Of a stretch of DNA of 64,000 bases, positions 8,463-63,962 are shown one piece after another. Each line of letters opens with the position of its first letter. Positions within the stretch are counted from its first letter, which is position 1. Under the pieces are notes generated by a model. It was not told the DNA's origin, ran no database searches, and saw nothing but the letters and a program-made list of their open reading frames with translations. Source of the DNA: Microbacterium luteum (GTDB lineage Bacteria > Actinomycetota > Actinomycetes > Actinomycetales > Microbacteriaceae); assembly GCF_015277875.1 (NCBI RefSeq), contig NZ_CP063814.1, positions 434,001-498,000 on the forward strand, given 5' to 3'. Made by a program: the position numbers and the translations under genes.

Positions 8463-8843
8463 TCATGCCTCGGTGTCGCCCGCGGCCTGCTGCTCGGCGA
8501 TCTGGCGCCGAACGTCATCCATGTCCAGGCCCTTCACCGCGGTGATCACCTGTTCCAGGGCCGGCGCGGGAAGGGCGCCCGGCTGCGAGAACACCATGAT
8601 GCCTTCGCGGAAGGCCGCCAGGGTCGGAATCGACGTGATGCCGAAACCCCCGGCGAGCTCGCGCTGATCCTAGGTGTCGATCTTGCCGAAGACGACGTCG
8701 GAATGCTCGTCGGACGCCTTCTCGAAGACGGGTGCGAAGGACCGGCACGGTCCGCACCATTCGGCCCAGAAGTCGAGCAGGACGATGTCGTTGTCGGCGA
8801 TGGTCTCGCGGAACGAGTCCATCGTCACGGTCTGCGTTGCCAT
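8463..8843 (-). pseudogene. Thioredoxin with in-frame amber codon
   Basis: Reading from ATG 8843 gives a thioredoxin of 126 codons interrupted at codon 58 by TAG (bases 8672-8670). Before the stop: [10 protein letters not shown] with the redox pair Cys30/Cys33; after it: DQRELAGGFGITSIPTLAAF with the cis-proline at position 73, then a helix ending in GDTEA and a TGA at 8465-8463. The frame is intact on both sides. The homologous position is normally glutamate (KIDTEDQ-like), and GAG to TAG is a single base change, so codon 58 was probably GAG. The truncated 57-residue product would have the active site but lack half the fold. Sequencing error, recent mutation or suppression are all possible. 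Confidence 0.85.
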
Positions 8844-8915
8844 GGAAGCCGCCTCTCTGTCGGTTGCGGTCTTCTTTCCTCCAGCGTAGGCCGATGCCGC
8901 TTCATTCCCGAGGGG

Positions 8916-9899
8916 TCAGCCGGCAGCGGACAACGAGACGAAATCGAGGCTCGCGTCCGAGATCTCCGTGCGCGCGGTCTCATCCGATACCTGTGGCACA
9001 CCGTCGCCCGGCTGCGGGCCGTACGAGCCGAACTGGGCGTGTGAGACGCCGTCGAGAACGAGGAACTCCGTGTCGACGGGAAGGGTGGCGGCGGTATCGG
9101 CGATCTTCGACGGCGTGGCCAGCCCGTCTTCGGTGCCGGAGATCGACAGCACCTGCGTGGTGAGGGTCTCGCTGATGTCGTCGGCGGGGTAGGAGGCGTA
9201 CAGGATCAGGCCCGTGGCTCGGCGCTCGGTGTCTTCGTCGTGTTCGTCGGCTTGCATTGCGGCGACCGTTCCGCCGAGCGAATGCCCGCCGATCACCCAG
9301 CCGTCGGCATGCGGCACGACGTCGCGGGCGTCGTCGAACGCGCCGAGCGCGAGGAACGCGATCCCCAGCGGCTGCTTGGCGATGACCACCGGATGGCCCG
9401 CCTCGGCGAGGGGGCGCAGGACCGCCGCGTAGGCGCGAGGGTCGACGAGCGCTCCGGGCTGGAAGAACACCGCGGTCGACGACGGCGCATCCGCGGGCTC
9501 GAAAACGATCCGATCGGCGCTCTCGACCACGGTGACGGCCTCGTCGCTCTGCATCGCCGAGAGCGCCGGCTCGACCGCCGGGTACGGGCGGAGCCAGGCG
9601 AGGGCGGCGATGCCCCCGGCGGCTGCGACCAGGAGGAGGATGCGACCGGTGACCCGCGCCGCGGTCCGGCGACGAGCGCCGCGCAGCGCCACGACGACGC
9701 CCAGGACCGCGAGCAGAGCGGCCGCGCCCAGCAGCACGGCATAGGCCGGGTGTCCGTGGACGATCGCCCCCCACGCGGTGACGCAGGCCCACACGATGAC
9801 TCCGAGGGCTGCGGCGGCGACGACGAGCGCGATCCACGTCAGCGCATCACGGCGCCGTGACGCGTCGCCGCCTCGCGGCGCATCCGATGACCCGCTCAC
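8916..9899 (-). CDS. Membrane-anchored alpha/beta hydrolase
   Basis: A 327-residue alpha/beta hydrolase with three hydrophobic segments in its first 110 residues (about 20-42, 53-72, 86-104), so it is held in the membrane with the catalytic domain at the C-terminus. The nucleophile elbow is GGHSLGG (about residues 203-209); likely acid Asp in SGTEDGLA and catalytic His in DGVSHAQFG, a fragment typical of a dienelactone hydrolase-like subgroup (GSYGPQPGDG follows). Substrate unknown. Its start overlaps the stop of the formylglycine-generating enzyme gene by 4 bases, so both are one transcription unit. Confidence 0.83.
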   Translation of the reverse strand: MSGSSDAPRGGDASRRRDALTWIALVVAAAALGVIVWACVTAWGAIVHGHPAYAVLLGAAALLAVLGVVVALRGARRRTAARVTGRILLLVAAAGGIAALAWLRPYPAVEPALSAMQSDEAVTVVESADRIVFEPADAPSSTAVFFQPGALVDPRAYAAVLRPLAEAGHPVVIAKQPLGIAFLALGAFDDARDVVPHADGWVIGGHSLGGTVAAMQADEHDEDTERRATGLILYASYPADDISETLTTQVLSISGTEDGLATPSKIADTAATLPVDTEFLVLDGVSHAQFGSYGPQPGDGVPQVSDETARTEISDASLDFVSLSAAG

Positions 9900-49716: not shown

Positions 49717-50201
49717 GCACCAGCGCCCTGTTCGCCGACGCCCGCGACCGGCTCGCGGGACTGCCGCGCGAACAGCTCGGCGAGCTCGTCGAACCGCGTC
49801 GCGTGCTCGGGGTGCGCCGTGCCCCGCGGATCGCGCCCCGTGATCAGGCGTGGCACCTGGGGGTGCTGCTGGTCGCCGACGAGCACGTCTCGGCCACCGG
49901 CGAGATCGTGCGCTCCCGCGAGGAGGCACGGCGCGGATTCACCGCCGAGTCGCAGCGGGACCGCGCCGCGCTTCAGGCGGCGGCCTTCCGCGGCGGCTTC
50001 GAGGAGGGCATCGCCGTGCACGTCGGCTGGCGGGTGCTCGACCTCGCCGCGGTGGATGCCGGTGGGTCGTCGGGTCCGCTGGCGATGATCGGCGGTAAGC
50101 CGCACGTGCGGTGGAGCGCAGCGGCCGGATTCGTGCCGCTGGCCGGCTACCTCGACGAACGGATCGGGCTCCTGGCCGACCCGCCGCGCGGGGCATCATA
50201 G
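49713..50201 (+). CDS. Hypothetical protein coupled to the antiporter
   Basis: A 162-residue cytoplasmic protein, not recognised. Similar proteins of Microbacteriaceae are sometimes labelled glutaminase, without visible support. Conserved-looking segments are QLGELVEPRRVLGVRRAPRIAPRDQAWHLGVLL, HVSATGEIVRSREEARRGF and HVRWSAAAGFVPLAGYLDER. The GTG start overlaps the antiporter's stop, so it is translationally coupled to it. It could modulate the transporter, but this is only inference from position. Confidence 0.68.
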   Translation: MSTSALFADARDRLAGLPREQLGELVEPRRVLGVRRAPRIAPRDQAWHLGVLLVADEHVSATGEIVRSREEARRGFTAESQRDRAALQAAAFRGGFEEGIAVHVGWRVLDLAAVDAGGSSGPLAMIGGKPHVRWSAAAGFVPLAGYLDERIGLLADPPRGAS

Positions 50202-50284
50202 CGACGAGAGGCCGACTCCGGGAGGACCCGTTCGCGACGCACGCATCCTCTAGGGTTGAACTCCCGAACTCGAGGTGGTTTTTC

Positions 50285-52522
50285 GTGCAGACATGGCCCG
50301 GATCCGCATATCCGCTGGGTGCGACATTCGACGGTAACGGCACGAACTTCGCGCTGTTCAGCGAAGGTGCCGACAAAGTCGAACTGTGCCTGTTCGACGA
50401 CGACGGCACCGAGACGTGCGTCGAGCTGCTCGACGTCGACGCGTTCGTCTGGCACGCGTACCTGCCGAACGTGCAGCCCGGGCAGCGCTACGGCTACCGT
50501 GTTCACGGCCCGTACGATCCGGCCAACGGGCAGCGCTACAACCCCAACAAGCTCCTGCTCGATCCGTACGCCAAGGCCGTCGACGGTCGGGTGAAGTGGG
50601 GACAGTCCGTCTTCAGCTACACCTTCGGCGACCCGGACTCGCGCAACGACGACGACTCGGCGGCCGACATGATGAAGGGCGTCGTCATCAACCCCTTCTT
50701 CGACTGGCAGGGTGACCGGTCGCCGAAGACGCCGCTGCACGAGACGTTCATCTACGAGGCGCACGTGAAGGGGCTGACGCAGCTGCACCCGTCGGTGCCG
50801 GAGGAGATGCGGGGAACCTACGCCGGGGTGGCGCATCCCGCGGTCATCGACCACCTGCAGAAGCTCAGCGTGACCGCGATCGAGCTCATGCCGGTGCACC
50901 AGTTCGTCAACGACTCGACCCTGCAGGAGAAGGGGCTGTCGAACTACTGGGGTTACAACACCATCGGCTTCTTCGCTCCCCATCACGGCTACGCCTCGAC
51001 GGGCGTCAACGGCCAGCAGGTGCAGGAGTTCAAGGCGATGGTGCGCTCGCTGCACGAGGCGGGCATCGAGGTCATCCTGGATGTGGTCTACAACCACACC
51101 GCGGAGGGCAACCACCTGGGCCCGACCCTGTCGATGCGCGGCATCGACAACGAGGCGTACTACCGGCTCGAGCAGAACGACAAGCGCTACTACACCGACT
51201 ACACCGGCACCGGCAACAGCATGAACGTCGGCAACCCCCACTCGCTGCAGCTGATCATGGATTCGCTGCGCTACTGGGTGCTGGAGATGCACGTCGACGG
51301 CTTCCGCTTCGATCTTGCCTCCACGCTCGCGCGCGAGTTCTACGATGTCGACCGCCTCTCGACCTTCTTCGAGATGGTGCAGCAGGACCCGGTGGTCTCG
51401 CAGGTGAAGCTCATCGCCGAGCCGTGGGACGTCGGCCCCGGCGGCTACCAGGTCGGCAACTTCCCGCCGCAGTGGACCGAGTGGAACGGCAAGTACCGCG
51501 ACACCGTGCGCGACTTCTGGCGCGGCGAGCCGCAGGCCCTGGGCGAGTTCGCCTCGCGCCTGACCGGCTCCAGCGACCTGTATGAGCGGTCCGGGCGCGC
51601 GCCGGTCGCGTCGATCAACTTCGTCACCGCTCACGACGGCTTCACGCTGCGCGACCTCGTGTCGTACAACGACAAGCACAACGAGGCCAACGGCGAAGAC
51701 AACCGAGACGGCGAATCGCACAACCGGTCCTACAACCACGGCGTCGAGGGCCCGACCGACGACCCGGAGATCCTCACGCTGCGCGCCCAGCAGCAGCGCA
51801 ACTTCATCGCCACGATGATGCTGAGCCAGGGCGTGCCGATGCTCTCGCACGGCGACGAGCTCGGCCGCACGCAGTTCGGCAACAACAACGGCTACGCCCA
51901 GGACAACGAGCTCACCTGGATCGACTGGGATGCCGTCGACCAGCCGCTGGTCGAGTTCACCGCTGCGCTCGCGCGCCTGCGCAAGGACCATCCCACCTTC
52001 CGGCGCACACGCTTCTTCGACGGACGCCCGGTGAAGATGGAAGAGGGTCGGCCCATTCCCGATGTGGTGTGGCTGCGGCCCGACGGCACGCTCATGCAGC
52101 CGGAGGACTGGGAGTCCGGGTTCGGCCGCACGATCGGGATCTTCCTCAACGGTCGCGGCATCCGCGAGCGCGACAAGTGGGGCGAGGAGATCACCGACCG
52201 GCACTTCATCGTGCTGTTCAACGCCGGCGACGAGCCCGTCGACTTCAAGATCCCGGCCCCGCGCTACGGGCCGGAGTGGGATGTCATGGTCGACACGGCG
52301 GGGGAGTGGGCCAACACCGACCCGCTCGATCCCGGTTCGCGCATCCCGCTGCAGCCGAAGGCGCTCATCGTGCTGCGCGAGCACGACCTTCCCGACCCGG
52401 AGGTCGATCACTCGGTCGCGGCCTCGCTCAGCATGCTCGTGCATTCGCGCACCACCGAGATCCCCGTCGTCACCCCACCGTCACCGTCCGCGGCCGCCTC
52501 GGTCGACGACGAGGGTGACTGA
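50285..52522 (+). CDS. glgX: Glycogen debranching enzyme (GlgX/TreX)
   Basis: A 745-residue GH13 isoamylase-type enzyme. An N-terminal carbohydrate-binding domain (GATFDGNGTNFALFSEGADKVELCLFDDD) precedes the catalytic barrel with DVVYNHTAEGNHLGPT, GFRFDLAS (nucleophile Asp), LIAEPWDVGPGGY (Glu) and NFVTAHDGFTLRDLVSYN. It removes alpha-1,6 branches from glycogen-like chains so that TreY and TreZ can act. The GTG start was chosen at the beginning of the family's core; it is preceded by a GAGGTGG run and a TAGGGT box at 50251-50256. First gene of treX-treY-treZ. Confidence 0.93.
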   Translation: MQTWPGSAYPLGATFDGNGTNFALFSEGADKVELCLFDDDGTETCVELLDVDAFVWHAYLPNVQPGQRYGYRVHGPYDPANGQRYNPNKLLLDPYAKAVDGRVKWGQSVFSYTFGDPDSRNDDDSAADMMKGVVINPFFDWQGDRSPKTPLHETFIYEAHVKGLTQLHPSVPEEMRGTYAGVAHPAVIDHLQKLSVTAIELMPVHQFVNDSTLQEKGLSNYWGYNTIGFFAPHHGYASTGVNGQQVQEFKAMVRSLHEAGIEVILDVVYNHTAEGNHLGPTLSMRGIDNEAYYRLEQNDKRYYTDYTGTGNSMNVGNPHSLQLIMDSLRYWVLEMHVDGFRFDLASTLAREFYDVDRLSTFFEMVQQDPVVSQVKLIAEPWDVGPGGYQVGNFPPQWTEWNGKYRDTVRDFWRGEPQALGEFASRLTGSSDLYERSGRAPVASINFVTAHDGFTLRDLVSYNDKHNEANGEDNRDGESHNRSYNHGVEGPTDDPEILTLRAQQQRNFIATMMLSQGVPMLSHGDELGRTQFGNNNGYAQDNELTWIDWDAVDQPLVEFTAALARLRKDHPTFRRTRFFDGRPVKMEEGRPIPDVVWLRPDGTLMQPEDWESGFGRTIGIFLNGRGIRERDKWGEEITDRHFIVLFNAGDEPVDFKIPAPRYGPEWDVMVDTAGEWANTDPLDPGSRIPLQPKALIVLREHDLPDPEVDHSVAASLSMLVHSRTTEIPVVTPPSPSAAASVDDEGD

Positions 52523-52552
52523 CGGATCGCACCGGACCGGAAGAGGACTGCC

Positions 52553-54934
52553 ATGCCCGCGCATCCCGTGTCGACCTATCGGCTGCAGATCCGCGCCGGT
52601 TTCGATCTCGACGCCGCCGCGGCGGTGACCGGATACCTCGCCGACCTCGGGGTGGACACCGCCTACGTGTCGCCGTTGCTGCAGTCGACGCGGGGCAGTG
52701 ACCACGGTTACGACGTGACCGACGTCACACGGGTCGACGCCGACCGCGGCGGACCCGAGGGGCTCGCCCGCTTCTCGGCGGCCGCCCGCGATGCCGGGCT
52801 CGGCGTGCTCGCCGACATCGTGCCCAACCACATGGGCATCTCGCAGCCACGCGAGAACCCGTGGTGGTGGGATGTGCTCACCCACGGACGCTCATCGGCG
52901 CACGCCGACGCGTTCGACATCGACTGGGAGGTCGGCGAGGGCCGCATCCGCGTACCCGTCCTCGGGGCGCCGTTGGATGAGGTGATCGGCGACATCCGCA
53001 TCGATCCCGCGCCGGCGCCGGAATCGCCGACCGGGCTCGCACGGTACTTCGAGCACATCCTGCCCCTCGCACCCGGCTCCGTGGGCGAGGGCGACGACCT
53101 CGCCACGGCCGACGGGGTGCGATCCGTGCTCGAGCGGCAGCACTGGGAGCTGCGCTTCTGGCAGGACGAGGCCACGGACCTCAACTACCGCCGCTTCTTC
53201 GCCGTGACGACGCTCGCGGCGGTGCGGGTCGAGCGGCCGGAGATCTTCGACGCGACCCATGCCGAGGTGCTGCGGTGGGTGCGGGAGGGCCTGGTCGACG
53301 GCCTGCGCGTGGACCATCCCGACGGCCTCGCCGACCCGGGCGGCTACCTCGCGCGGCTGGCCGAGGCCACCGGCGGCGCCTACGTGCTCGTGGAGAAGAT
53401 CCTCGAGCGCAGCGCCCACGAACCGGGCGCCGAGCCGTCCGAGGCGCTCCCGGCCTGGTGGGCCACCGCCGGGACGACCGGCTACGACGCGCTGGCCGAG
53501 ATCGACCGGGTGCTCGTCGACCCGAACGGCGAGCAGCCTCTCACCGCCCTCGACGGCGTGCTGCGCGGCACCGTTCCGGTGTGGGGCGACATGATCCACG
53601 ACACCAAGCGCATGATCGCCGACACGATCCAGGTCTCCGAGATCCGCCGCCTCGTGCGGGGCCTGCCCGAGCCGGTCGCCGACGCCGAAGACGCCCTCGC
53701 CGAGCTCCTGGCGTGCTTCCCGACCTACCGGTCCTACCTGCCGGCCGGGATCGAGGACCTCCACCACGCCGCTCGGGAGGCGGAGCGCCGTCGTCCCGAC
53801 CTGGCCGACGCGATCCGCACCCTCGTCCCGGTCCTCTCCGACGCCACGCTCGAGGTCACTCGCCGCTTCGAGCAGACGACCGGCCCGGTCATGGCCAAGG
53901 GCGTCGAGGACACCGCGTTCTACCGCTACACGCGGCTGGGCTCTCTCACCGAGGTCGGCGGCGATCCCGTCGTGTTCGCGCTGTCGGTGCCGGGGTTCCA
54001 CGCGGCGTGGCAGCGCCGTCAGGCGTCGTGGCCGCACGCGATGACGACGCTGTCGACCCACGACACCAAGCGCGGCGAAGATGTGCGCGCTCGCCTCGAC
54101 GTGCTCGCCGAGGTGCCGGGGCGCTGGGGCGAGGTGCTGGATCGCCTGCGCGAGGTCGCCTCGACCGGGAACGGCCCCTTCGACAACCTGCTGTGGCAGG
54201 CGATCGTCGGATCCTGGCCGGCGACGCCCGAGCGGCTGCACGCCTACGCCGAGAAGGCGGCGCGCGAGGCCGCGGAGCAGACCGGCTGGTGGCGCCCCGA
54301 CGAGATCTTCGAGCAGCGCATGCACGACCTCGTCGACGCCGCGTTCGGATCCGCCGGCGGTCTCGTCGAGGCCTTCGTCGACGAGATCGCCGAGGCCGGG
54401 TGGTCGAACTCCTTGTCGGCGAAGCTGCTGCAGCTCGCCGGTCCGGGTGTGCCCGACGTCTACCAGGGGTCGGAGCTGTGGGAGACCTCGCTGGTCGATC
54501 CCGACAACCGGCGTCCGGTGGACTTCGCGCGGCGAGCCCGGATGCTGGCCGAGCTCGACGCCGGGTTCTCGCGCGGCGAGCTGCCCGCGGTCGATGCCGG
54601 GGGTGCGGCGAAGCTGCTGGTCACCTCCCGGGCGCTGCGCCTGCGCCGGGAGCATCCGGAGCTGTACACGCGCTACACGCCGATGACGGTGGTGGGTGAG
54701 GCCGCCGACCACGCGATCGCGTTCGATCGCGGTGGTGCGATCGCCGTCGCGACGCGGCTGCCGGTAGGCCTCGCCGCCCGCGGCGGCTGGGGCGACACCG
54801 CCCTGATGCTGCCCGACGGCGCCTTCGTCGACGCGATCACGGGCCGGCGCATCGCGGGCGGCGCGAGCGCGCTCGCCGACCTGCTGTCGACGTACCCGGT
54901 CGCTCTCCTGGCTCGCGAGGTGTCCGGTGGCTGA
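52553..54934 (+). CDS. treY: Maltooligosyl trehalose synthase
   Basis: A 793-residue GH13 enzyme converting the reducing-end alpha-1,4 bond of a maltooligosaccharide to an alpha-1,1 bond. Motifs: STYRLQIRAGFDLDAAAAVTGYLADLGVDTAYVSPLL, ADIVPNHMGIS, GLRVDHPDGLADPGGYLARL (catalytic Asp), VLVEKILE (Glu) and STHDTKRGEDVRARL near the C-terminus. Length and order match actinobacterial TreY. It is 30 bases after treX and 96 bases before treZ, read together. Confidence 0.95.
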   Translation: MPAHPVSTYRLQIRAGFDLDAAAAVTGYLADLGVDTAYVSPLLQSTRGSDHGYDVTDVTRVDADRGGPEGLARFSAAARDAGLGVLADIVPNHMGISQPRENPWWWDVLTHGRSSAHADAFDIDWEVGEGRIRVPVLGAPLDEVIGDIRIDPAPAPESPTGLARYFEHILPLAPGSVGEGDDLATADGVRSVLERQHWELRFWQDEATDLNYRRFFAVTTLAAVRVERPEIFDATHAEVLRWVREGLVDGLRVDHPDGLADPGGYLARLAEATGGAYVLVEKILERSAHEPGAEPSEALPAWWATAGTTGYDALAEIDRVLVDPNGEQPLTALDGVLRGTVPVWGDMIHDTKRMIADTIQVSEIRRLVRGLPEPVADAEDALAELLACFPTYRSYLPAGIEDLHHAAREAERRRPDLADAIRTLVPVLSDATLEVTRRFEQTTGPVMAKGVEDTAFYRYTRLGSLTEVGGDPVVFALSVPGFHAAWQRRQASWPHAMTTLSTHDTKRGEDVRARLDVLAEVPGRWGEVLDRLREVASTGNGPFDNLLWQAIVGSWPATPERLHAYAEKAAREAAEQTGWWRPDEIFEQRMHDLVDAAFGSAGGLVEAFVDEIAEAGWSNSLSAKLLQLAGPGVPDVYQGSELWETSLVDPDNRRPVDFARRARMLAELDAGFSRGELPAVDAGGAAKLLVTSRALRLRREHPELYTRYTPMTVVGEAADHAIAFDRGGAIAVATRLPVGLAARGGWGDTALMLPDGAFVDAITGRRIAGGASALADLLSTYPVALLAREVSGG

Positions 54935-54936
54935 CA

Positions 54937-55016
54937 TCGAGTGCACGAGAACTCGCCGAGTGCACGCCTTGTCTGCGCAGATATCTCGTGCTTTCGGCGA
55001 GAAGCCGTGCACTCGA
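54937..55016. repeat. Imperfect 23-base inverted repeat between treY and treZ
   Basis: The left arm TCGAGTGCACG...CTCGCCGA (54937-54959) and the right arm TCGGCGAG...CGTGCACTCGA (54994-55016) pair for 19 of 23 positions. A second copy of CGAGTGCACG begins at 54957, and CACGAGA (54944) can also pair with TCTCGTG (54984). The hairpin lies within an operon, where it could tune treZ expression. Confidence 0.6.
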
Positions 55017-55030
55017 GGGGGAATGAGATC

Positions 55031-56803
55031 ATGAGCGTCGAGGTGTGGGGACCGCGGGTCGAGCGGATGCGGCTGCGCCGACCGGGAAGCGGCGACGTCG
55101 AGATGACCGCCGCCGCCGATGGCTGGTGGACGTGCGACGTCGACCTCGCCGACGGCGAACGGTACGGGTTCGTGCTCGGCGACGGGGATCATGTTCGCCC
55201 GGACCCGCGTTCGAGGCGTCAGCCCGACGGTGTGCACGGACTCTCTGCGCACGTCGATCACGAGGCGCTGACCGCCGCGGCACCGCACCTCACCGACGCG
55301 ATGTGGACCGGGCGACAGCTTGCCGGAGGCCTGGTCTACGAGATGCACGTCGGCACCTTCACCCCCGAGGGCACCCTCGATGCCGCGGCCGGTCGCCTTT
55401 CGCACCTGGTCGACCTCGGGGTCTCGCATATCGAACTGCTGCCGGTCAACGGCTTCAATGGCGTGTGGAACTGGGGCTACGACGGCGTGCTCTGGTACAC
55501 GGTGCACGAGGCCTACGGCGGGCCGGCGGCGTATGTGCGCTTCGTTCAGGCCGCCCACGCCGCCGGGCTCGCGGTCATCCAGGACGTCGTCTACAACCAC
55601 CTCGGCCCGAGCGGCAACTACCTGCCCGAGTTCGGTCCGTATCTGCGCGACGCCGAGCGCAACACGTGGGGCTCCAGCGTCGACCTCGACGAGCCCGCCG
55701 TGCGCGCCTACATCGTCGAGAACACCCTGATGTGGATGCGCGACTACGGCGTCGACGGACTGCGGCTGGATGCGGTCCACGCGCTGAAGGACGCGCAGCC
55801 GGTGCACATCCTGCGCGAGCTCGCCGAGGCCGCCGACGCCCTCTCGGCCCATCGCGGCGTGCCGCTGACGCTGATCGCGGAATCGGACATGAACGACCCG
55901 ACGCTGATCCTGCCGCGAGAAGCCGGCGGCTATGGCCTCCACGCGCAGTGGAGCGACGACTGGCACCACGCGGCGCACGTGGCACTCACCGGCGAGACGG
56001 TCGGATACTACGAGGACTTCGCGGCTGTCGACGCGCTGACCAAGGTGTGGACGCGCGGGTTCTTCCATGACGGCACGTACTCGTCGTTCCGGGGACGCGA
56101 GCACGGCCGGCCCGTTCCCGCGGAGATGCCGGCGTGGCGCCTGGTGACCTTCGCGCAGGACCACGACCAGATCGGCAACCGCGCCGCCGGCGACCGGCTC
56201 AGCCAGTCGCTGACGCCGGACCGCCTGGCCGTGGCCGCGGTACTGACCCTCACCGCTCCGGGCACCCCCATGCTCTTCATGGGCGAGGAGTGGGGCGCGT
56301 CGACTCCGTGGCAGTTCTTCACGTCGCATCCGGAGCCCGAGCTCGGGGAGGCCACCGCGAAAGGCCGTATCGAGGAGTTCGCCCGCATGGGGTGGGACCC
56401 GGCGACGGTGCCCGATCCGCAGGATCCCGAGACCTACCACCGCTCTCACCTCGCGTGGGAGGAGGCCGGCGACGGCGAGCACGCGCGCCTGCTCGCGCTC
56501 TACCGCCGCCTCGCGCGCCTGCGCCGCGAGCGACCGGAGCTCACCGATCCCGATCTCGCCGCGCTCGGCGCCGACCTCGTGGTCGACGAGGGCCCCGGCA
56601 GCCGCGCCTGGGAGCTGCGCCGTGGTGCGCTGCGCATCCTCGTGAACCTCGCCGGGAACCCGTGGACGACGCGAATGGAGGAAGGCGAGGTCGTGCTGCT
56701 GAGCACGTCGCCCGCCGTCACCGAGGAGTCCGGCGGCATCACCGTCCCCGCCGACGCGGCCGTCATCATCGGCCCGCACCGGCCGGGGGATGATCGCGCC
56801 TGA
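55031..56803 (+). CDS. treZ: Malto-oligosyltrehalose trehalohydrolase
   Basis: A 590-residue GH13 enzyme that releases trehalose from the TreY product. It has an N-terminal beta domain ([18 protein letters not shown]), then [50 protein letters not shown] (nucleophile Asp), [10 protein letters not shown] (Glu) and [18 protein letters not shown] 55031 was chosen because the N-terminal domain starts there; the longer upstream frame covers the inverted repeat. Last gene of the treXYZ pathway, which makes trehalose as an osmoprotectant from glycogen. Confidence 0.95.
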
Positions 56804-58497: not shown

Positions 58498-58545
58498 CTG
58501 TCGATTCTCCCATGTATCACCGAGCGACTTTCGCCCTCTCCGGTG

Positions 58546-58557
58546 TTGTGGACACAA
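58546..58557. promoter_or_regulatory. Palindrome overlapping the -10 of the sigma factor gene
   Basis: TTGTG-GA-CACAA (58546-58557) is a perfect 5-base inverted repeat that includes most of the probable -10 box CACAAT (58553-58558), 7 bases before the ATG at 58566. A regulator bound here would block the whole protease cluster. Confidence 0.42.
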
Positions 58558-58565
58558 TGGGCTTC

Positions 58566-59183
58566 ATGACGCATGCGGGGTCTGGGGCCTCCGTCGAGTC
58601 CGTCGATCAGCCACGGTGGGAGAGAGCGGCCGCTTTCTTTCGGCGTTGGCGGGACGGCGACCGTCGGGCGATGGATGAACTGGTGGCGCTGATGACGCCG
58701 GTGCTGTGGCACGTGGTGCGCGCGTACGGGCTCGACGCCGCGCTCGCGCAGGACGTCGTGCAGACTACGTGGCTCACCCTCGTGCAGCGGCATTCCGCGA
58801 TCGCCGATCCGAGTGCCGTGTCGGGTTGGCTGACCACGACGGCGCGCCGTGAGGCGTGGCGGGTGGGCAAGCAGCAGCGTCGCGCCGAGGCGACCGAGGC
58901 CGAGAACCTCGAGCCGCACCTTCCGGTCCACGAATCCGCGGAACAGACCGCGGCGACCGACGACGAGTCGCGTCGCCTGTGGCAGGCCGTGGCACAGCTC
59001 AATGAACGCTGCCAGCGGCTGCTGCGCATCGTCGCATTCGACGACCGCCCCGACTACGCCCGCATCGCCGCCGACATGGCGATGCCGGTCGGATCGATCG
59101 GACCGACTCGCCGGCGCTGCCTCGGCAAGCTCCGCACCCTCTTCGAGGGCGCCGGGGAAGAGGAAGACGCACATGGACACTGA
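58566..59183 (+). CDS. ECF-like RNA polymerase sigma factor of the protease cluster
   Basis: A 205-residue sigma-70 family protein. Region 2 is AMDELVALMTPVLWHVVRAYGLDAALAQDVVQTTWLTLVQ; region 4 is CQRLLRIVAFDDRPDYARIAADMAMPVGSIGPTRRRCLGKLR, where I-G-P-T-R-R-R-C-L is typical of stand-alone ECF factors associated with proteases in actinobacteria. ATG 58566 is used; ATG 58512 and 58557 are alternatives, but the -10-like box 7 bases upstream favours 58566. Its end overlaps the next small gene by 11 bases, so the two are translationally coupled. Confidence 0.85.
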   Translation: MTHAGSGASVESVDQPRWERAAAFFRRWRDGDRRAMDELVALMTPVLWHVVRAYGLDAALAQDVVQTTWLTLVQRHSAIADPSAVSGWLTTTARREAWRVGKQQRRAEATEAENLEPHLPVHESAEQTAATDDESRRLWQAVAQLNERCQRLLRIVAFDDRPDYARIAADMAMPVGSIGPTRRRCLGKLRTLFEGAGEEEDAHGH

Positions 59184-59646
59184 AGACTTCGCCGCAGACG
59201 CGGCGCTGTTCGCGCGGCTGCGCGCGACATGGGATGACATCGACCCGATGCCGGCCGACATGATCGATCGGATGGTCGCCGCCGTGGCGGTCGCCGACCT
59301 GTCGCGGGAGTACGCGCTGCTGACCCTCGTGGAGGGGGCCGTCACCGGAGCGGTGCGCACGACGCCCGCAGAGACCGCGACCCTGCAATTCAGCCGCGGC
59401 GACACGACCGTGCTGCTGCACGTGAGCGTGACCGCCGCGGGCAATCGGCGCATCGACGGCTGGGTCGACGCCGAGACGCTCGCGATCCGGCTCGTGCAGG
59501 GCGACGCGGATTGGGCGGCCGACCCGGCCGAGCACGGCCGGTTCGCGTTCGAGGAGATCCCGCCCGGCATGACGCGTCTGCGGATGGCCGTGCGCGGCAC
59601 GGACGGAGCCATGAAGGAGTTCGAGACGCCTCAGTTCGAGGCCTGA
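59173..59646 (+). CDS. Small protein with anti-sigma-like N-terminus and beta C-terminal domain
   Basis: A 157-residue acidic, cytoplasmic protein. The N-terminal helix (ALFARLRATWDDIDPMPADMIDRMVAAVAVADL) resembles the start of small anti-sigma-like proteins, and the C-terminal half (WVDAETLAIRLVQGD, HGRFAFEEIPPGMTRLRMAVRG) resembles the carboxypeptidase-regulatory-like beta sandwich (GRF-x-F-x-x-P-P-G). There are no cysteines, so no zinc anti-sigma. It overlaps the sigma gene by 11 bases, so it is its partner: a candidate sigma-binding protein and protease substrate. Confidence 0.72.
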   Translation: MDTEDFAADAALFARLRATWDDIDPMPADMIDRMVAAVAVADLSREYALLTLVEGAVTGAVRTTPAETATLQFSRGDTTVLLHVSVTAAGNRRIDGWVDAETLAIRLVQGDADWAADPAEHGRFAFEEIPPGMTRLRMAVRGTDGAMKEFETPQFEA

Positions 59647-59714
59647 GAGCGGTGGATGCGCCCGCATCCGCCGAGTGAGATCGCCGTGCGCGGCGAGAGA
59701 GAGCAGGGGGACGC

Positions 59715-61391
59715 ATGGCCGACACCGTCGATGAGCCCGGGTGGCGCGATCGGATCCAGGCCGGCAGGCCGCGCGGCGTGCCCCTCGACCCGGGCGTCGA
59801 GCAGGTCGAGGGCGTCGATCCCTATCCGACCACCTATGCCGCCGATCATGTGCTGCTGACGGAGGGCGCGCGGCTGCTCGAGATCCTCGAGATCCTCCGA
59901 TCGGCCGGCGCCTACTTCGGGTGGGGCGTGCGCGTGGAGAGCATCCGGGGTGATCGCCAGACCGACGCCGAGGCGGAGGAGCGTGCGAGGGTCGCCGAGG
60001 AGGAGCTGGGGCTCCCCCTCGTGCTCCTCGGCGTCATCTTCCCCGACCCGAAGCCCGGCCGCGACGATCAGCCGGTGCCGCCGGTGGATGCGTGGCGTCT
60101 GCTCCAGCGTGCGCGGGCGATCTACGGCAAGGACCTCAGCGGCGTCGCTCTCGACCACGTCATCAGCGTCGACCCGTCCGGTTCGACGAACCCCTACGGC
60201 TCCACGAACCCCTACGGTTCGACGAACCCCTACGGCTCCACGAACCCCTACGGTTCGACGAACCCGTATGGCTCGACCAACCCCTACGGTTCCACCAACC
60301 CCTATGGGTCGACCAACGCTCCCGGTCCGGGGGCCTACGCCTACCCCGGGTCGGGTGGGCGTGAGGTCGTCAGCTACATCGGCGATCCGCCCCGGCGCGA
60401 CGACGAGACCGTCCGCGGGCGTCGCCCGGTGGTGGCCTACATGGACACCGGCTGCGGAAAGCACGCGTGGCTGCCGCCGTCGATCGTCGATCGCGACCCC
60501 CACGTCAACGGTGTGCCGATCGGGATCACGAATCCCGCCGACGATCCCGAGGCGATCGGCGACGTCTCCGGACCCTACGACGGCTTCCTCGACGCGGCGG
60601 CCGGTCACGGCACGTTCGTCGCCGGGGTCGTGCGGCAGATCTGTCCCGACGCCGACCTCATCTCGATCCGCGTTGCCGACAGTCAGGGCACGTTGCTGGA
60701 GGGCGAGTTCCTCGAGGCGGTGCGCGCGGTGGCGGAGCTCGTCATCCGCGATGCCCGGGGTCTTCCGGGCGGCCGCCCCATCGATGTGCTCAACCTGTCG
60801 CTGAGCTACTACCACGAGACTCCGGAAGACGGTCAGTTCGACCAGACCCTCGTGCGCTACCTCGTCGCCGCGCGGCGGCACGGCTGCGCCGTGGTGTGCT
60901 CCGCCGGCAACGACGCGACCTCTCGCCCGGCCTTCCCGGCGGCGCTCTGGCGGTGGCCCGACGCCGAGTTCGTCGTCGATGATCCGTCCGATGCGGCACC
61001 GCACCTGTCGGTCGGCGCCCTCAATCCGAACGGCAAGACCGTGGCGCTGTTCAGCAACATCGGGCGCTGGGTGCGGGTCTACGCACCGGGCGCCGCGGTC
61101 GTGAGCTCCGCCCCGCCGTTGAACGGCGGAACCCAGGCCGGCACCCGGAACGACCGCTTCGGGCTGCGACGGGAGACGATCGATCCCGATGACTACACCG
61201 GCGGCTTCGTCATGTGGAGCGGCACGTCGTTCGCCGCGCCGTTCATCGCGGGGCTGCTCGCCGAGCGCATCGCCGACGGACTCATCGACGGCACCGCCGA
61301 CACGTCGGTCGCCGCGCGCGTGAGCGCGCTCGAGAAGGCCGGATCCCGCGCCCTGCGGGAGTGGGACGGGCACCGCCGCGCGCCCGCCTGA
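59715..61391 (+). CDS. Cytoplasmic S8 subtilisin-like protease with NPYGST repeats
   Basis: A 558-residue subtilisin-family protease with no signal peptide or propeptide-like region, so it acts in the cytoplasm. Residues 1-155 form an N-terminal domain unrecognised here (TYAADHVLLTEGARLLEILEIL, FGWGVRVESIRG). Residues 159-200 are seven exact NPYGST hexapeptides. The catalytic triad follows in order: Asp244 (VVAYMDTGCG), His298 (GHGTFVAGVV) and Ser505 (GTSFAAPFIAG), with oxyanion Asn399 (SAGNDATS). An AGAGAGAGCAGGGGG run precedes the ATG. It is 68 bases after the small gene and 69 bases before the CHAT gene. Confidence 0.9.
   Translation: MADTVDEPGWRDRIQAGRPRGVPLDPGVEQVEGVDPYPTTYAADHVLLTEGARLLEILEILRSAGAYFGWGVRVESIRGDRQTDAEAEERARVAEEELGLPLVLLGVIFPDPKPGRDDQPVPPVDAWRLLQRARAIYGKDLSGVALDHVISVDPSGSTNPYGSTNPYGSTNPYGSTNPYGSTNPYGSTNPYGSTNPYGSTNAPGPGAYAYPGSGGREVVSYIGDPPRRDDETVRGRRPVVAYMDTGCGKHAWLPPSIVDRDPHVNGVPIGITNPADDPEAIGDVSGPYDGFLDAAAGHGTFVAGVVRQICPDADLISIRVADSQGTLLEGEFLEAVRAVAELVIRDARGLPGGRPIDVLNLSLSYYHETPEDGQFDQTLVRYLVAARRHGCAVVCSAGNDATSRPAFPAALWRWPDAEFVVDDPSDAAPHLSVGALNPNGKTVALFSNIGRWVRVYAPGAAVVSSAPPLNGGTQAGTRNDRFGLRRETIDPDDYTGGFVMWSGTSFAAPFIAGLLAERIADGLIDGTADTSVAARVSALEKAGSRALREWDGHRRAPA
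60189..60314 (+). repeat. Seven 18-base repeats coding NPYGST
   Basis: Seven 18-base units encode NPYGST without any substitution. Third-position choices give a 36-base higher-order unit: units 1-2 (GGC TCC ACG then GGT TCG ACG) are repeated exactly as units 3-4, which indicates a recent duplication of two units. The linker joins the N-terminal domain to the protease. Confidence 0.85.
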
Positions 61392-61460
61392 GCCGCCCGG
61401 TCACCCCGCTCTCTGCCGGCGCGGTGACCGCGTCCGCCGCGACTACGGCATGATGTCGGC

Positions 61461-63962
61461 GTGGGCACGGACGCGACGCAGCTGCATCAGCGCGCCGTCG
61501 CGCAGTGCATCGACGGCCGCTTCGCGGCGGCGCAGCGCACGCTCGACCGGGCCGAGCGCCTGACCGGCGACCGCGACCTGCTCGCGCGCATCGCCGGAAC
61601 CCGCGCCATCGCCCTGCAGCGCACCGGCCGCCCCGTCGCGGCAGAAGAGGTGCTGCAGAACGCTCTCGCCCAGCCGGGACTCAGCCCGCACACGGAGTCC
61701 ATCCTGCTCGGCCAGCTCGGCGGTCTCGCCACCTACAACGGACGACTCGACGATGGCGAACGCTGGCTCGGCGATGCCATCGACCGGCTGAGCGACGATC
61801 CCGTCGCCGCGTCCCGCATCCGCATGAACCGCAGTCTGGTGCGCATGCAGCAGCGGCGTCTGGCCGAGGCGGCGGATGACCTGTCGGCGGCGGTGTCGGT
61901 GTTCGCCGAGCACGGGCTCGCCACCGACGCGGCGCAGGCGCGTCACAATCTCGGATACACCGCGCTGCTGCGCGGCGACCTGGTCCGCGCGCTGCGAGAG
62001 ATGACAGACGCGCGATCGGATGCTGCGACCTCACCCGTCGCCGAAGCGATCGGCGACATGGACCGCGCCGAGGTGTTCCGGGACGCGGGGCTCACGACCG
62101 AGGCAGAGGAGCTGTTCCGGCACGCCGCGGCGATCTTCGGCGCGCGCCGCATGCCGCAGTCGCGAGCCGAGGCGGAGTTCCACCTCGCGAGATCGCTGCT
62201 CGCACACGACGGTGCGGCCTCAGCGCGGGTCGCCGCAGACGCCGCGCGACGGTTCCGGGCACTGGGTAACGACGCGTGGGCCGCCCGCGCCGAAGCGGTG
62301 CGCCTGCGGGCGCGCCTCGCGGAGAGACGGCCGGGCTCCGGGAATCAGCACCGGCCTCCCGCCCCGGCAGCGGCGGAAGATGTCGCGGCGTCGCTCGTCG
62401 TTCACGGCTTCCGCAGCGAGGCGGTCGCACTTCGCATCGCCGTCGCACGTGCCGCCGTGCGTGCGGGCGACCCGTCCGCCCCGGCGCCGCGGGTGCCGGC
62501 ATCCGCTCCGATGGACCTGCGGCTGCTCTCCGACGAACTCAAGGCCACCCGCGCGGCCGCACGCGGACGCCCGACCGAAGCCCGCCGACACGCGGCGGCG
62601 GGGCTGGATCGCCTCGGAGCGTGGCAGAGCTCGTTCGGCAGCATCGATCTGCAGACCTCGGTCGCCATGCACGGGGCGAGCCTCGTCTTCGCCGGGCTGC
62701 GTTCGGCGGTGAGCTCGCGCGCGCCCGAGGTGGTCTTCGAATGGTCCGAGCGCGCACGGCATCTGAGCCAGCAGGTCGTTCCGCTGCGGCCGCCTCCGGA
62801 CCCGCAGCTGGCCGACGCGCTCGCCGAGCTTCGCATGCTCCGTGCGGAGAATCCCGCCCGCGACTGGCTCTCCAGCCCTCGCGCGGCACAGTTGCGTGAC
62901 CTCGCCCGCGAGCGGCAGTGGACATCTGTCGGCGCGTCTCGCATCGACGCGCGGGTCGACCTCGCGACGCTCTGCGACGGCCTCACCGCCGACACCGCGC
63001 TGCTCGCCTACGTCTACACGGGGCGCGAGATCGTCGCCGTCGTGTGCGATGGCTCCCACGCCGAGATCGTGTCCCTCGGCGACGGCGACGAGGTGCGCGA
63101 CCTGCAGAAGGGGCTGCGCGCCGATCTCGATGTCGCTGCGGCGGTGCGCACGGGGCCGATGGCGGCGGTCGTGCGCCGGTCTCTCGACGCGCGACTGGCC
63201 GCCCTGTCGGCCGCCCTCCTCGACGGGCCGCTCCGGCAGACCTCCGCCCGCCGCCTCGTGGTCACCGCGCCGGGACTCCTGAACGCCATCCCGTGGGCGA
63301 TGCTGCCCGGCATGCGCGGGCGTGTGTTCACCCTGGCCGCGTCGGCCTCGCAGTGGCTGCATCGGCGTGAGGCCGTGGAGCCCGCCGTCGCGCCGACCGT
63401 GGAGCCCGCCGTCGCTCCGGCGGCACCGCTGAGCGCGGGGTTCGCAGTCGGGCCACGCGTCGCGCGCGGCGGAGAGGAAGCCCGAGTGGGCGCCTCAGCC
63501 TGGTCCGGTGCCCCCGTCATCGACGGCGGCGCCGCCACCGTTCAGGCGATCACCGACCTGGCCGGCGAGGTCGACGTACTCCACGTCGCCGCGCACGGCC
63601 GTCACGCGGTGGACAACCCGATGTTCTCCGGTCTCGAACTCGCCGACGGCGCCCTCTTCGGCTACGACATCGATCAGGTCTCCCGTGTGCCCGCGACGGT
63701 CGTGCTGTCGGCGTGTGAGGTTGGTCGATCGTCCGTGCGATGGGGCGAGGAGGCGATCGGCATGGCGCGGGTGTGGCTCCACGCCGGGTCGGCATCCGTC
63801 ATCGCCGCGCCCGTCGTCGTGGCTGACGACATCGCGTGCGAGCTGCTCGGCTCGATGCACGCCGAGCTCGCTAGCGGCCTCGCGCCGGCTGAAGCGCTCG
63901 CAGCCGCATCCGCTCGGCTCGACATGGTCTCGCCCTTCCAAGCGCACGGTACCGGATTCTGA
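61461..63962 (+). CDS. TPR-CHAT (caspase-like) protease
   Basis: An 833-residue protein. Residues about 1-200 contain TPR-like helices (AAQRTLDRAERLTGDRDLLARI, AVSVFAEHGLATDAAQARHNLG, LRGDLVRALREMTDARSD). A long helical middle follows, then a C-terminal CHAT domain with LHVAAHGRHAVDNPMFSGL (catalytic His712) and TVVLSACEVGRS (catalytic Cys752). CHAT proteases relate to caspases and separase; in type III-E CRISPR a TPR-CHAT protease cleaves a sigma-regulating partner. The GTG at 61461 was chosen; a CATGAT -10-like box lies 6 bases upstream. It is the last gene before the window ends. Confidence 0.9.
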   Translation: MGTDATQLHQRAVAQCIDGRFAAAQRTLDRAERLTGDRDLLARIAGTRAIALQRTGRPVAAEEVLQNALAQPGLSPHTESILLGQLGGLATYNGRLDDGERWLGDAIDRLSDDPVAASRIRMNRSLVRMQQRRLAEAADDLSAAVSVFAEHGLATDAAQARHNLGYTALLRGDLVRALREMTDARSDAATSPVAEAIGDMDRAEVFRDAGLTTEAEELFRHAAAIFGARRMPQSRAEAEFHLARSLLAHDGAASARVAADAARRFRALGNDAWAARAEAVRLRARLAERRPGSGNQHRPPAPAAAEDVAASLVVHGFRSEAVALRIAVARAAVRAGDPSAPAPRVPASAPMDLRLLSDELKATRAAARGRPTEARRHAAAGLDRLGAWQSSFGSIDLQTSVAMHGASLVFAGLRSAVSSRAPEVVFEWSERARHLSQQVVPLRPPPDPQLADALAELRMLRAENPARDWLSSPRAAQLRDLARERQWTSVGASRIDARVDLATLCDGLTADTALLAYVYTGREIVAVVCDGSHAEIVSLGDGDEVRDLQKGLRADLDVAAAVRTGPMAAVVRRSLDARLAALSAALLDGPLRQTSARRLVVTAPGLLNAIPWAMLPGMRGRVFTLAASASQWLHRREAVEPAVAPTVEPAVAPAAPLSAGFAVGPRVARGGEEARVGASAWSGAPVIDGGAATVQAITDLAGEVDVLHVAAHGRHAVDNPMFSGLELADGALFGYDIDQVSRVPATVVLSACEVGRSSVRWGEEAIGMARVWLHAGSASVIAAPVVVADDIACELLGSMHAELASGLAPAEALAAASARLDMVSPFQAHGTGF

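Follow-up and report, generated by a model that had tools for sequence, protein, structure and literature searches.

The four co-directional genes at positions 58566–63962 (+ strand) of the window, the whole stretch of 64,000 nucleotides of Microbacterium luteum DNA that was analysed, encode an ECF-type sigma factor, an overlapping small protein of 157 aa, a subtilisin (S8) and a TPR-CHAT protease, and the view that they constitute one functional unit is strongly supported by their co-occurrence, the order variants found elsewhere and the conservation of the catalytic residues. All four reading frames claimed by the first-pass annotation were found; it had missed that the S8 gene together with about residues 1–700 of the CHAT protein is, judging from sequence comparison, an exchangeable cassette (59647–63560, + strand, with borders inferred from relatives) within a conserved frame. 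Our tentative reading, to which we give somewhat less than an even chance, is that the four genes make up one protease-driven transcriptional switch, with a cascade from the TPR-CHAT protease via S8 and the small protein to the sigma factor.

The sigma factor (58566–59183, + strand, 205 aa from the supported start in a reading frame that opens at 58512) scores 60 bits against TIGR02937, sigma70-ECF (NCBIfam, cut-off 42.9), which places it among the ECF factors, and 31.9 bits against Sigma70_r2 (Pfam, cut-off 24). Its homologues show 41–76% identity (23 aligned). The pattern GTATCA-(39–41)-A[CG]AAT-7 bp-ATG is present in 81/81 upstream regions, those of 80 named loci and of the window, and the conserved promoter region of the operon (58514–58565, + strand) holds GTATCA at 58514–58519 and CACAAT at 58553–58558, followed by 7 bp and the start codon. 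The ATG is located exactly 7 bp past A[CG]AAT in every one of the 81 regions, and this fixed spacing makes 58566, the start given by the first-pass annotation, the best choice. The distance between GTATCA and A[CG]AAT is 39, 40 or 41 bp in 11, 66 and 4 cases respectively, and the upstream in-frame ATG at 58512 would therefore have no constant frame. From the sequence we infer a leaderless operon transcript. Each of the two exact promoter patterns was found once in the own genome; in a search of 33 genomes the exact left pattern gave 17 sites, 9 at the operon and 8 elsewhere, and the exact right pattern 9 sites, all at the operon.

The gene of the small protein (59173–59646, + strand) overlaps that of the sigma factor by 11 bp, as had been stated. 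The small protein is without a match in Pfam (E up to 1), PADLOC or NCBIfam (E up to 0.1), and no known anti-sigma family was matched. Its model has two predicted N-terminal helices and an Ig-like beta-sandwich, and the fold search gave only common beta-sandwich matches, in a comparison that barely covered the helices. Sigma factor and small protein distances co-vary with r 0.90 in the genus set and 0.67 in the other-order set (both defined below), which together with the gene coupling makes the product a putative anti-sigma factor or soluble sigma partner.

The last gene (61461–63962, + strand, 833 aa; TPR part taken as residues 5–290, CHAT domain as 579–820) encodes the only CHAT match in the 3.52-Mb genome (PF12770, 88 bits), and the domains listed by Pfam are CHAT, TPR_12 and TPR_2 only. 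No PDB match was found by phmmer with the CHAT domain alone; in a profile search the best CHAT match among those listed was 8rot (E 1.8e-9). The PDB matches of the TPR part include the response regulator aspartate phosphatases 6t3h and 4gyo amid many generic TPR proteins. Residue conservation was scored by alignment over the 80 named loci, 40 other-order loci and the window, leaving out S8 proteins below 450 aa and CHAT proteins below 730 aa. The dyad residue Cys752 (63714–63716, + strand) is kept in 111/111 CHAT proteins and His712 (63594–63596, + strand) in 110, the single exception being L090, where CHAT was matched in two ORFs. In the subtilisin (59715–61391, + strand, 558 aa; PF00082, 83.8 bits) Asp244 (60444–60446), His298 (60606–60608) and Ser505 (61227–61229), all on the + strand, are invariant in 109/109 S8 proteins together with Asn399, and the active-site residues that had been proposed for both proteases are thus correct.

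The exact gene set and order occurs in 69 of 80 loci found via the small protein, and 5 more are interrupted by contig ends; the two pieces from genome G023 (L051 and L052) were excluded from locus counts. With this and the near-invariant catalytic residues the cluster passes the co-conservation test by which the first-pass annotation had proposed it could be refuted. The same four gene families occur in several other families of actinobacteria in different orders, for example S8-sigma-small-CHAT. One family has CHAT matches in 86 of its 149 genomes (E up to 1e-60), a further family in 15 of 24 and the own genus in 21 of 35 (E up to 1e-25). The 35 genus genomes comprise 20 with both small protein and CHAT, one with CHAT alone (at a contig end), none with the small protein alone and 14 with neither (Fisher p 6e-9, relatedness ignored). 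That the genes are chance neighbours without a functional link is, against this co-occurrence, next to impossible, and was rejected as the families stay together under different gene orders.

Within the genus the locus recurs at two chromosomal sites, and the neighbours scanned are mostly metabolic genes. Of 136 neighbour proteins 110 were listed, and a PADLOC scan of 46 hand-picked from these gave 20 families, each in one member only, which in a scan with no control set is weak evidence either way. Ten proteins, nine encoded close to sigma/small or small-only loci and the tenth being the 220-aa ORF of L039, are by Pfam ordinary enzymes and one DUF4397 protein, with no alternative effector among them. 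In viral contigs the CHAT alignment found no relative and the small-protein alignment one 19-residue match, and in a plasmid collection the CHAT protein was matched in two records, of which one is an 11.9-Mb replicon, so that a phage- or plasmid-borne system was rejected. With such neighbours, chromosomal sites and viral scans, the phage defence or dormancy role put forward in the first-pass annotation is not shown.

The subtilisin has, by a reading of its N-terminus, no hydrophobic stretch, which agrees with the earlier claim that it lacks a signal peptide, and it is probably cytoplasmic. Pfam lists no inhibitor-I9 match, but structural alignment of the model with 3whi (model residues 43–556) and 3afg (23–558) spans that domain, and the protein is predicted to be a zymogen with an I9-like propeptide (residues about 36–151, 59820–60167, + strand), a point missed earlier. 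At the junction of propeptide and protease domain lies a tandem repeat linker (60172–60317, + strand), likewise missed, with the unit GSTNPY (phase PYGSTN) in 7 to 8 copies (TRF period 18, 7.7 copies) and with pLDDT below 50 across residues 155–215. Seven copies are identical in amino acids, with pS 0.51 and pN 0. Arrays were found in 83 of 96 S8 proteins of a first set, from which S8 proteins of up to 450 aa in named loci were left out, and 76 of the 83 have amino acid-identical copies (mean pS 0.51, pN 0.005), and in 30 of 37 of a second set (pS 0.47, pN 0.006); four proteins are common to both sets, and these within-array pN values are biased low because near-identical copies define an array. 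The copies thus differ mainly at synonymous sites, and the array is, on this pattern of substitution, under selection. The unit varies among loci, with 26 different units in 66 loci. Neither repeats nor S8 are indispensable, since 13 of the 96 homologues, Streptomyces-like and several others, are without repeats and the Microbacterium locus L046 keeps sigma factor, small protein and CHAT without S8. In genome G032 a search at E 1e-25 revealed no S8 in the 25 candidates that were scored.

TPR receptors of the RRNPP type bind short peptides, and the array might be a multi-copy peptide precursor, from which S8 (auto)cleavage would release peptides of 5–8 residues that bind the TPR domain of the CHAT protein. 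Copies that are identical within an array and units that differ between species, much like pherotypes, would fit such signalling, as would the unit-TPR association described below and the aspartate phosphatases among the PDB matches. However, the array shares its polypeptide with S8, the TPR match is generic, and no transporter or secretion gene was recognised within the operon itself, and we consider this explanation improbable.

The cassette is indicated by sliding-window correlations and by the pair L096/L104, where the swap runs from the stop codon of the small protein to about CHAT residue 702. The operon could also serve a stress response under autoregulation; S8 and CHAT would then degrade proteins in general, the repeats would be no more than disordered spacers, and ordinary recombination would account for the cassette pattern. 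In line with this are the recurrent chromosomal sites, the mostly metabolic neighbours and the single exact site per promoter pattern. A mere spacer would not, however, hold its copies identical at a synonymous divergence of pS about 0.5, and the L096/L104 borders fall at the small-protein stop codon and just before the CHAT catalytic end; we find this account unlikely.

The genus distance set consists of the 66 of 81 loci in which all four genes are above the length limits, with L128 omitted. Here the distances of the S8 catalytic domain correlate with those of the CHAT TPR part with r 0.84, with the sigma factor with 0.39 and with the CHAT domain with 0.54; the partial link between S8 catalytic and CHAT domains is 0.40 (p 0.001, a partial Mantel value that is too small where sequences are related). 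The CHAT domain follows the sigma factor and small protein (r 0.69–0.71), and sliding windows over CHAT residues 719–818 give r 0.66–0.69 with both. This would suit an order as in Craspase, in which CHAT cuts the small protein and frees the sigma factor, S8 acting further down the line as an effector (a suicide protease, for instance) or being a regulon product, with the linker as its activation site only. The retention of sigma factor, small protein and CHAT without S8 in L046 also points this way, and there is a precedent in Csx29-Csx30-CASP-sigma (PMC10028731). Common vertical ancestry would equally explain the correlation of the CHAT end with sigma factor and small protein, however, and such an order leaves the joint variation of S8 and TPR unexplained; we judge it rather unlikely. 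Co-variation does not point to a route in which CHAT cuts the holder of the sigma factor, as suggested by the first-pass annotation, because what varies along with the TPR region is the subtilisin and its repeat linker and not the sigma factor or small protein.

Within Microbacterium, exchange of a single contiguous DNA block accounts in full for the association of S8 with TPR. The association was also followed in 31 loci with the order S8-sigma-small-CHAT, in which S8 and TPR are non-adjacent (27 of the 40 fetched loci and 4 earlier ones), where all partial Mantel p-values are likewise too small for related sequences. Given sigma factor and small protein, the S8 catalytic domain is linked with the TPR part (0.46, p 0.0005), and its link with the CHAT domain is below significance (0.13, p 0.075). 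The propeptide tracks the CHAT domain (0.27, p 0.0045) instead of the TPR part (0.14, p 0.077), and the S8 catalytic domain is also linked with the small protein when TPR and middle region are controlled for (0.32, p 0.0015). The 25 of these loci with a tandem unit show an association of unit and TPR given sigma factor, small protein and S8 catalytic domain (0.41, p 0.0005), which holds under permutation within backbone clusters (p 0.0018); under the same control the associations of the unit with two further regions are weak, at 0.26 (p 0.009) for the middle region and 0.22 (p 0.0175) for the CHAT domain. The CHAT windows with the highest unit association are 113–162 (partial 0.50) and 693–743 (0.49, containing His712), with 0.44 for 718–768, which contains Cys752, and also for S8 window 275–324 outside the linker. 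In the genus set CHAT window 694–743 is not specially associated with the unit (r 0.32). When 12 disjoint close pairs are compared, every region correlates with the unit (0.75–0.94) and TPR is not singled out. Statistically, the repeat unit appears to track the CHAT TPR region even where sigma factor and small protein separate both genes.

In the proposed switch the co-encoded small protein would keep the sigma factor silent, and the subtilisin would arise as a zymogen, with the array of short, identical peptides connecting its I9-like propeptide to the protease. The CHAT protease would recognise the particular peptide unit through its TPR region, and once triggered the CHAT active site would cut the array, so that the propeptide is lost and mature S8 becomes active. 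Active S8 may then destroy the small protein, and perhaps others, and the sigma factor, once free, would transcribe the operon as well as whatever other targets it has. The part of CHAT responsible for recognition would be inherited and exchanged together with S8 as a matched cassette, with sigma factor, small protein, promoter and the CHAT catalytic end as the conserved frame. Cassette swapping is the pattern that an arms race would give.

Proteolytic control of the sigma factor is plausible by analogy with Csx29, Csx30 and CASP-sigma. The type III-B SAVED-CHAT cascade has a second, caspase-like protease and a sigma partner as its targets. The likeness to it lies in a CHAT protease working via a proteolytic cascade, but here Pfam finds no SAVED domain and the second protease is an S8 with propeptide. 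The own genome has no match to PF03787 (RAMP) or PF01867 (Cas1), with positive controls in 4 and 9 of 14 genomes respectively, in agreement with the earlier statement that no gRAMP gene is present, and CRISPR membership was rejected. Pro-subtilisin E, Tk-SP and PCSK9 have an I9 propeptide and S8 fold like those predicted here; the locus differs from these zymogens in the disordered identical-repeat array at the propeptide-protease junction and, by reading, in having no signal peptide. IetAS is not indicated, as NCBIfam IteS_antiphage scored 19.3 bits against a cut-off of 900 and the best PADLOC IetS match had E 2.2e-5.

In type III-E Craspase a TPR-CHAT protease with a His/Cys dyad is also the neighbour of an ECF-like sigma factor and of one more protein, with a similar protease-to-sigma logic, and Csx29 cleaves Csx30, an inhibitor of CASP-sigma (PMC10028731); the locus here has instead a predicted subtilisin zymogen with repeat linker, and its small protein is far shorter than Csx30, for which the source has a residue range up to 565. 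The type III CRISPR Lon protease CalpL, which cleaves the anti-sigma CalpT, forms with it and the ECF factor CalpS a comparable triad (PMC11417357), in which CHAT and S8 here replace Lon and no SAVED domain is matched. EACC2, with an ECF sigma factor and a DUF1822 TPR protein, likewise co-encodes a caspase-clan protease, TPR and ECF sigma factor with variable partner domains, and the accessible sections name no S8 protease or small protein (PMC8195603); in contrast to EACC1/EACC2 the protease here is CHAT, and Peptidase_C14 is not among the Pfam matches. The texts returned by our literature searches held no description of this four-gene cluster. A protease-released sigma factor is already known from CRISPR type III, and the S8 linker array and the swapped cassette would be the addition here.

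It is possible, though we hold this too only tentatively, that the locus is a CRISPR-free, caspase-like two-protease system in which the TPR of CHAT reads the linker peptide arrays, the matched ligand-receptor pair being swapped as a cassette in a frame of sigma factor, inhibitor and catalytic end. It would then be a chromosomal actinobacterial relative of the type III CRISPR systems with protease-released sigma factors, and array and cassette would form a code for the specificity between the two proteases that can be tested directly and whose natural variety of peptide-TPR pairs could serve to build orthogonal protease switches. Such an allelic recognition code, if true, would be the counterpart in bacteria of polymorphic receptors for self-recognition or immunity, here connected to a transcription switch, and if phages or rivals drive the diversification, it would open a new class of systems for immunity or kin recognition in bacteria.

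The right end of the window carries four co-directional genes, encoding an ECF-type sigma factor (ORF 58512–59183, supported start 58566), a small protein (59173–59646), an S8 peptidase (59715–61391) and a TPR-CHAT protease (61461–63962), in a host genome that consists of a single contig of 3.52 Mb. Upstream of the sigma gene GTATCA is followed after 39–41 bp by A[CG]AAT and, exactly 7 bp further on, by an ATG, in all of the 81 upstream regions compared (80 named loci of relatives and the window). This ATG is at the position equivalent to 58566, and the in-frame ATG at 58512 sits inside the promoter element, in a frame that is not constant across loci, so 58566 is the likely start of the sigma factor and the operon transcript may be leaderless. 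The left promoter pattern has 17 exact sites in 33 genomes, of which 9 are operon sites and the other 8 lie at different places, and the right pattern has 9, every one at the operon; in the own genome there is one exact site for each. Further upstream (50111–56803) are three long plus-strand ORFs which, from reading of the sequence only, resemble a glycogen/trehalose operon of the glgX-treY-treZ type.

With the small protein as query, relatives are found in 24 of 58 genomes searched. The genus is represented by 35 genomes, with the own one counted, of which 20 have the small protein, 21 CHAT relatives and 20 S8 relatives. The small protein and CHAT occur together in 20 of the 35, with no genome having the first only, one the second only and 14 neither (Fisher p 6e-9, relatedness ignored), and for the small protein and S8 the corresponding numbers are 19, 1, 1 and 14 (p 9e-8, again ignoring relatedness). 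Genome G003 has CHAT and S8 without the small protein; there both genes sit at the edge of a contig 4.6 kb long. All four genes are present in 20 of the 22 relatives' loci in the first set retrieved whole. Locus L050 has sigma and small protein only, relatives of CHAT and S8 being on different contigs of its genome, and L046 (7370–11148) has sigma, small protein and CHAT without S8, which was not found anywhere in that genome at E 1e-25. Among the 80 named small-protein loci, 77 are Microbacterium records, and by start position 69 have exactly the order sigma-small-S8-CHAT. The exceptions include five that miss genes at contig ends, three with CHAT matched in two ORFs, one with S8 behind CHAT and one with two S8 genes. 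The copy of Microbacterium elymi (L132) looks degenerate, with CHAT split over three ORFs and followed by a short fragment of S8. A Microbacterium-like copy is also found under the GTDB title Planococcus sp. APC 4015 (L120), on a contig that is probably mislabelled or contaminated.

The small protein is present in at least 19 of 296 genomes of the phylum, a lower bound since 12 candidates were scored per genome. Sixteen of these loci were retrieved. All four genes are present in 10 (CHAT of one in two ORFs), and in one no S8 is visible; three carry sigma and small protein only (one of these at a contig start) and two the small protein alone. Two other families yielded CHAT matches, one in 86 of 149 genomes and the other in 15 of 24, and 37 of 40 loci retrieved there have all four genes, 30 in the order S8-sigma-small-CHAT, six in that of the window and one with S8 on the opposite strand; the rest comprise two loci with S8 and CHAT only in view and one without a resolved gene set. 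Between S8 and CHAT, five minus-strand ORFs are inserted over ~4 kb in locus L036 (8243–12191), and L039 has a 220-aa ORF without a Pfam match (8630–9292).

All 109 S8 proteins compared share Asp244, His298, Asn399 and Ser505; among 111 CHAT proteins Cys752 is kept in every one and His712 in 110. Judged by this conservation both proteases are of active types. The first-pass annotation had read the four genes as one cluster, which scattered occurrence or freely varying catalytic residues would have spoken against; co-occurrence and catalytic conservation together leave that reading standing.

The model of the small protein (mean pLDDT 84.4) combines two helices with an Ig-like beta-sandwich, and comparison with the PDB gave no convincing match beyond generic beta-sandwiches. 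When 7997 candidates were scored in a profile search, 805 relatives reached E 0.001 or lower; no Pfam domain was found in 120 relatives among the matches listed, and the readable source names of those listed are hypothetical or uncharacterized. Its tight coupling behind the sigma gene makes it a candidate anti-sigma factor.

According to the respective papers, Csx29 cleaves Csx30, an inhibitor that binds CASP-sigma (PMC10028731), CalpL cleaves the anti-sigma factor CalpT (PMC11417357), SAVED-CHAT acts through a proteolytic cascade (PMC11229360), and caspase systems with an ECF sigma factor are known (PMC8195603). The four-gene operon is similar in spirit to all of these. RAMP and Cas1 have no match in the own genome, nor SAVED and Peptidase_C14 in the TPR-CHAT protein, and by the features tested the operon is a member of none of these systems. 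No description of the four-gene cluster, its repeat linker or its cassette was found in the accessible text of the literature searched, mostly outside subscription papers.

In the S8 model the low-confidence stretch corresponds to a tandem array; that of the window has 7–8 GSTNPY units, encoded by an 18-bp repeat (60172–60317). Arrays are present in all 75 S8 proteins above 450 aa from named loci, with 26 different units across 66 loci (PFTRTN, PYGSTN, PFKAN, PHGMTN, PFTGN and others), and outside the genus the units differ again (PFWGGH, PFTSGG, HPMYDG, NPAYQG, GYGSGV, GGQFGGI, VGQWGS). The array is absent in 13 of 96 S8 proteins of the first set, Streptomyces-like and some other homologues, and in 7 of 37 of the second set, several of which keep spaced copies of a motif. 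Copies within an array are identical in amino acids in 76 of 83 arrays, with mean pS 0.51 and pN 0.005 in the first set and 0.47 and 0.006 in 30 arrays of the second, pN being lowered by design as arrays were searched by near-identical copies. The high pS nevertheless speaks for selection maintaining unit identity beyond recent duplication alone; some duplication of a 36-bp dimer at the DNA level is also present in the window array. In one actinobacterial genome (L075, 8240–19402) two S8/CHAT/small sets adjoin, with the units PFTSGG and HPMYDG, a difference to be expected if units give specificity.

Across the 66 loci of the genus, distances of sigma and small protein correlate with r 0.90, and those of the S8 catalytic domain with the TPR and middle regions of CHAT (0.84 and 0.82), against 0.39 with sigma. 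The CHAT domain follows sigma (0.69) and the small protein (0.71) more closely than the S8 catalytic domain (0.54), and given sigma and small protein the latter correlates at 0.81 with TPR and 0.40 with the CHAT domain. By sliding windows the change falls at the border of small protein and S8 and inside CHAT, between residues ~630 and 720. Pairs of loci with near-equal sigma and small protein have a TPR distance of 0.17 when their units are equal (116 pairs) and 0.69 when they differ (243 pairs), the CHAT domain distances being 0.26 and 0.42 and those of the backbone 0.13 and 0.16. The clearest swap is between M. kyungheense (L096) and M. jejuense (L104), where flanking DNA is 84–88% identical and the sigma-small stretch 94.6%, with near-zero blastn similarity from the small-protein stop codon to CHAT residue ~702, except for one S8 segment (324 columns, 66%). 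Past residue ~702 identity is 86% up to the contig end, indicating that the catalytic end of CHAT is outside the swapped block. The CHAT gene of the window also has a 24-bp two-copy repeat (63373–63419), in an Ala/Pro/Val-rich stretch ahead of His712 and close to where the cassette border is inferred.

Within the genus the swapped block alone is enough for the agreement of S8 and TPR. In the order S8-sigma-small-CHAT, sigma and small protein stand between the two protease genes, and in 31 such loci, given sigma and small protein, the S8 catalytic domain correlates with TPR (0.46, p 0.0005) and the middle region (0.34, p 0.0005) and not significantly with the CHAT domain (0.13, p 0.075), while the propeptide pairs with the CHAT domain (0.27, p 0.0045) and not with TPR (0.14, p 0.077). 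In 25 loci the unit correlates most highly with TPR (0.73), followed by the S8 catalytic domain (0.65), small protein and middle region (both 0.63) and CHAT domain (0.58); given sigma, small protein and S8 catalytic domain, its association with TPR is 0.41 (p 0.0005), with the middle region 0.26 (p 0.009) and with the CHAT domain 0.22 (p 0.0175). The CHAT windows of highest unit association are 113–162 (partial 0.50) and 693–743 (0.49), the latter surrounding the active site together with 718–768 (0.44), and S8 window 275–324, outside the linker, also reaches 0.44. When permuted within backbone clusters the association of unit and TPR stays significant (p 0.0018), those of the middle region, CHAT domain and propeptide are weaker (p 0.011–0.036), and the S8 catalytic domain gives no unit signal (0.16). 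A disjoint-pairs test did not single out TPR, since the unit correlates with every region. These sequence comparisons lend moderate support to the idea that TPR-CHAT recognises the linker directly; that CHAT also cuts it is a more tentative suggestion.

Ten neighbour proteins were scanned in one other family, and nine matched Pfam families, predominantly those of metabolic enzymes. Within the genus there are two recurrent sites for the locus: 10 of 18 loci stand behind gene family c4, and most others adjoin families c17 and c11. The metabolic neighbours and the two recurrent sites speak for a resident regulatory system, and a role in defence is possible but somewhat doubtful. The diversification of the cassette speaks for a driver that is external or social, namely phage, competitor or kin.
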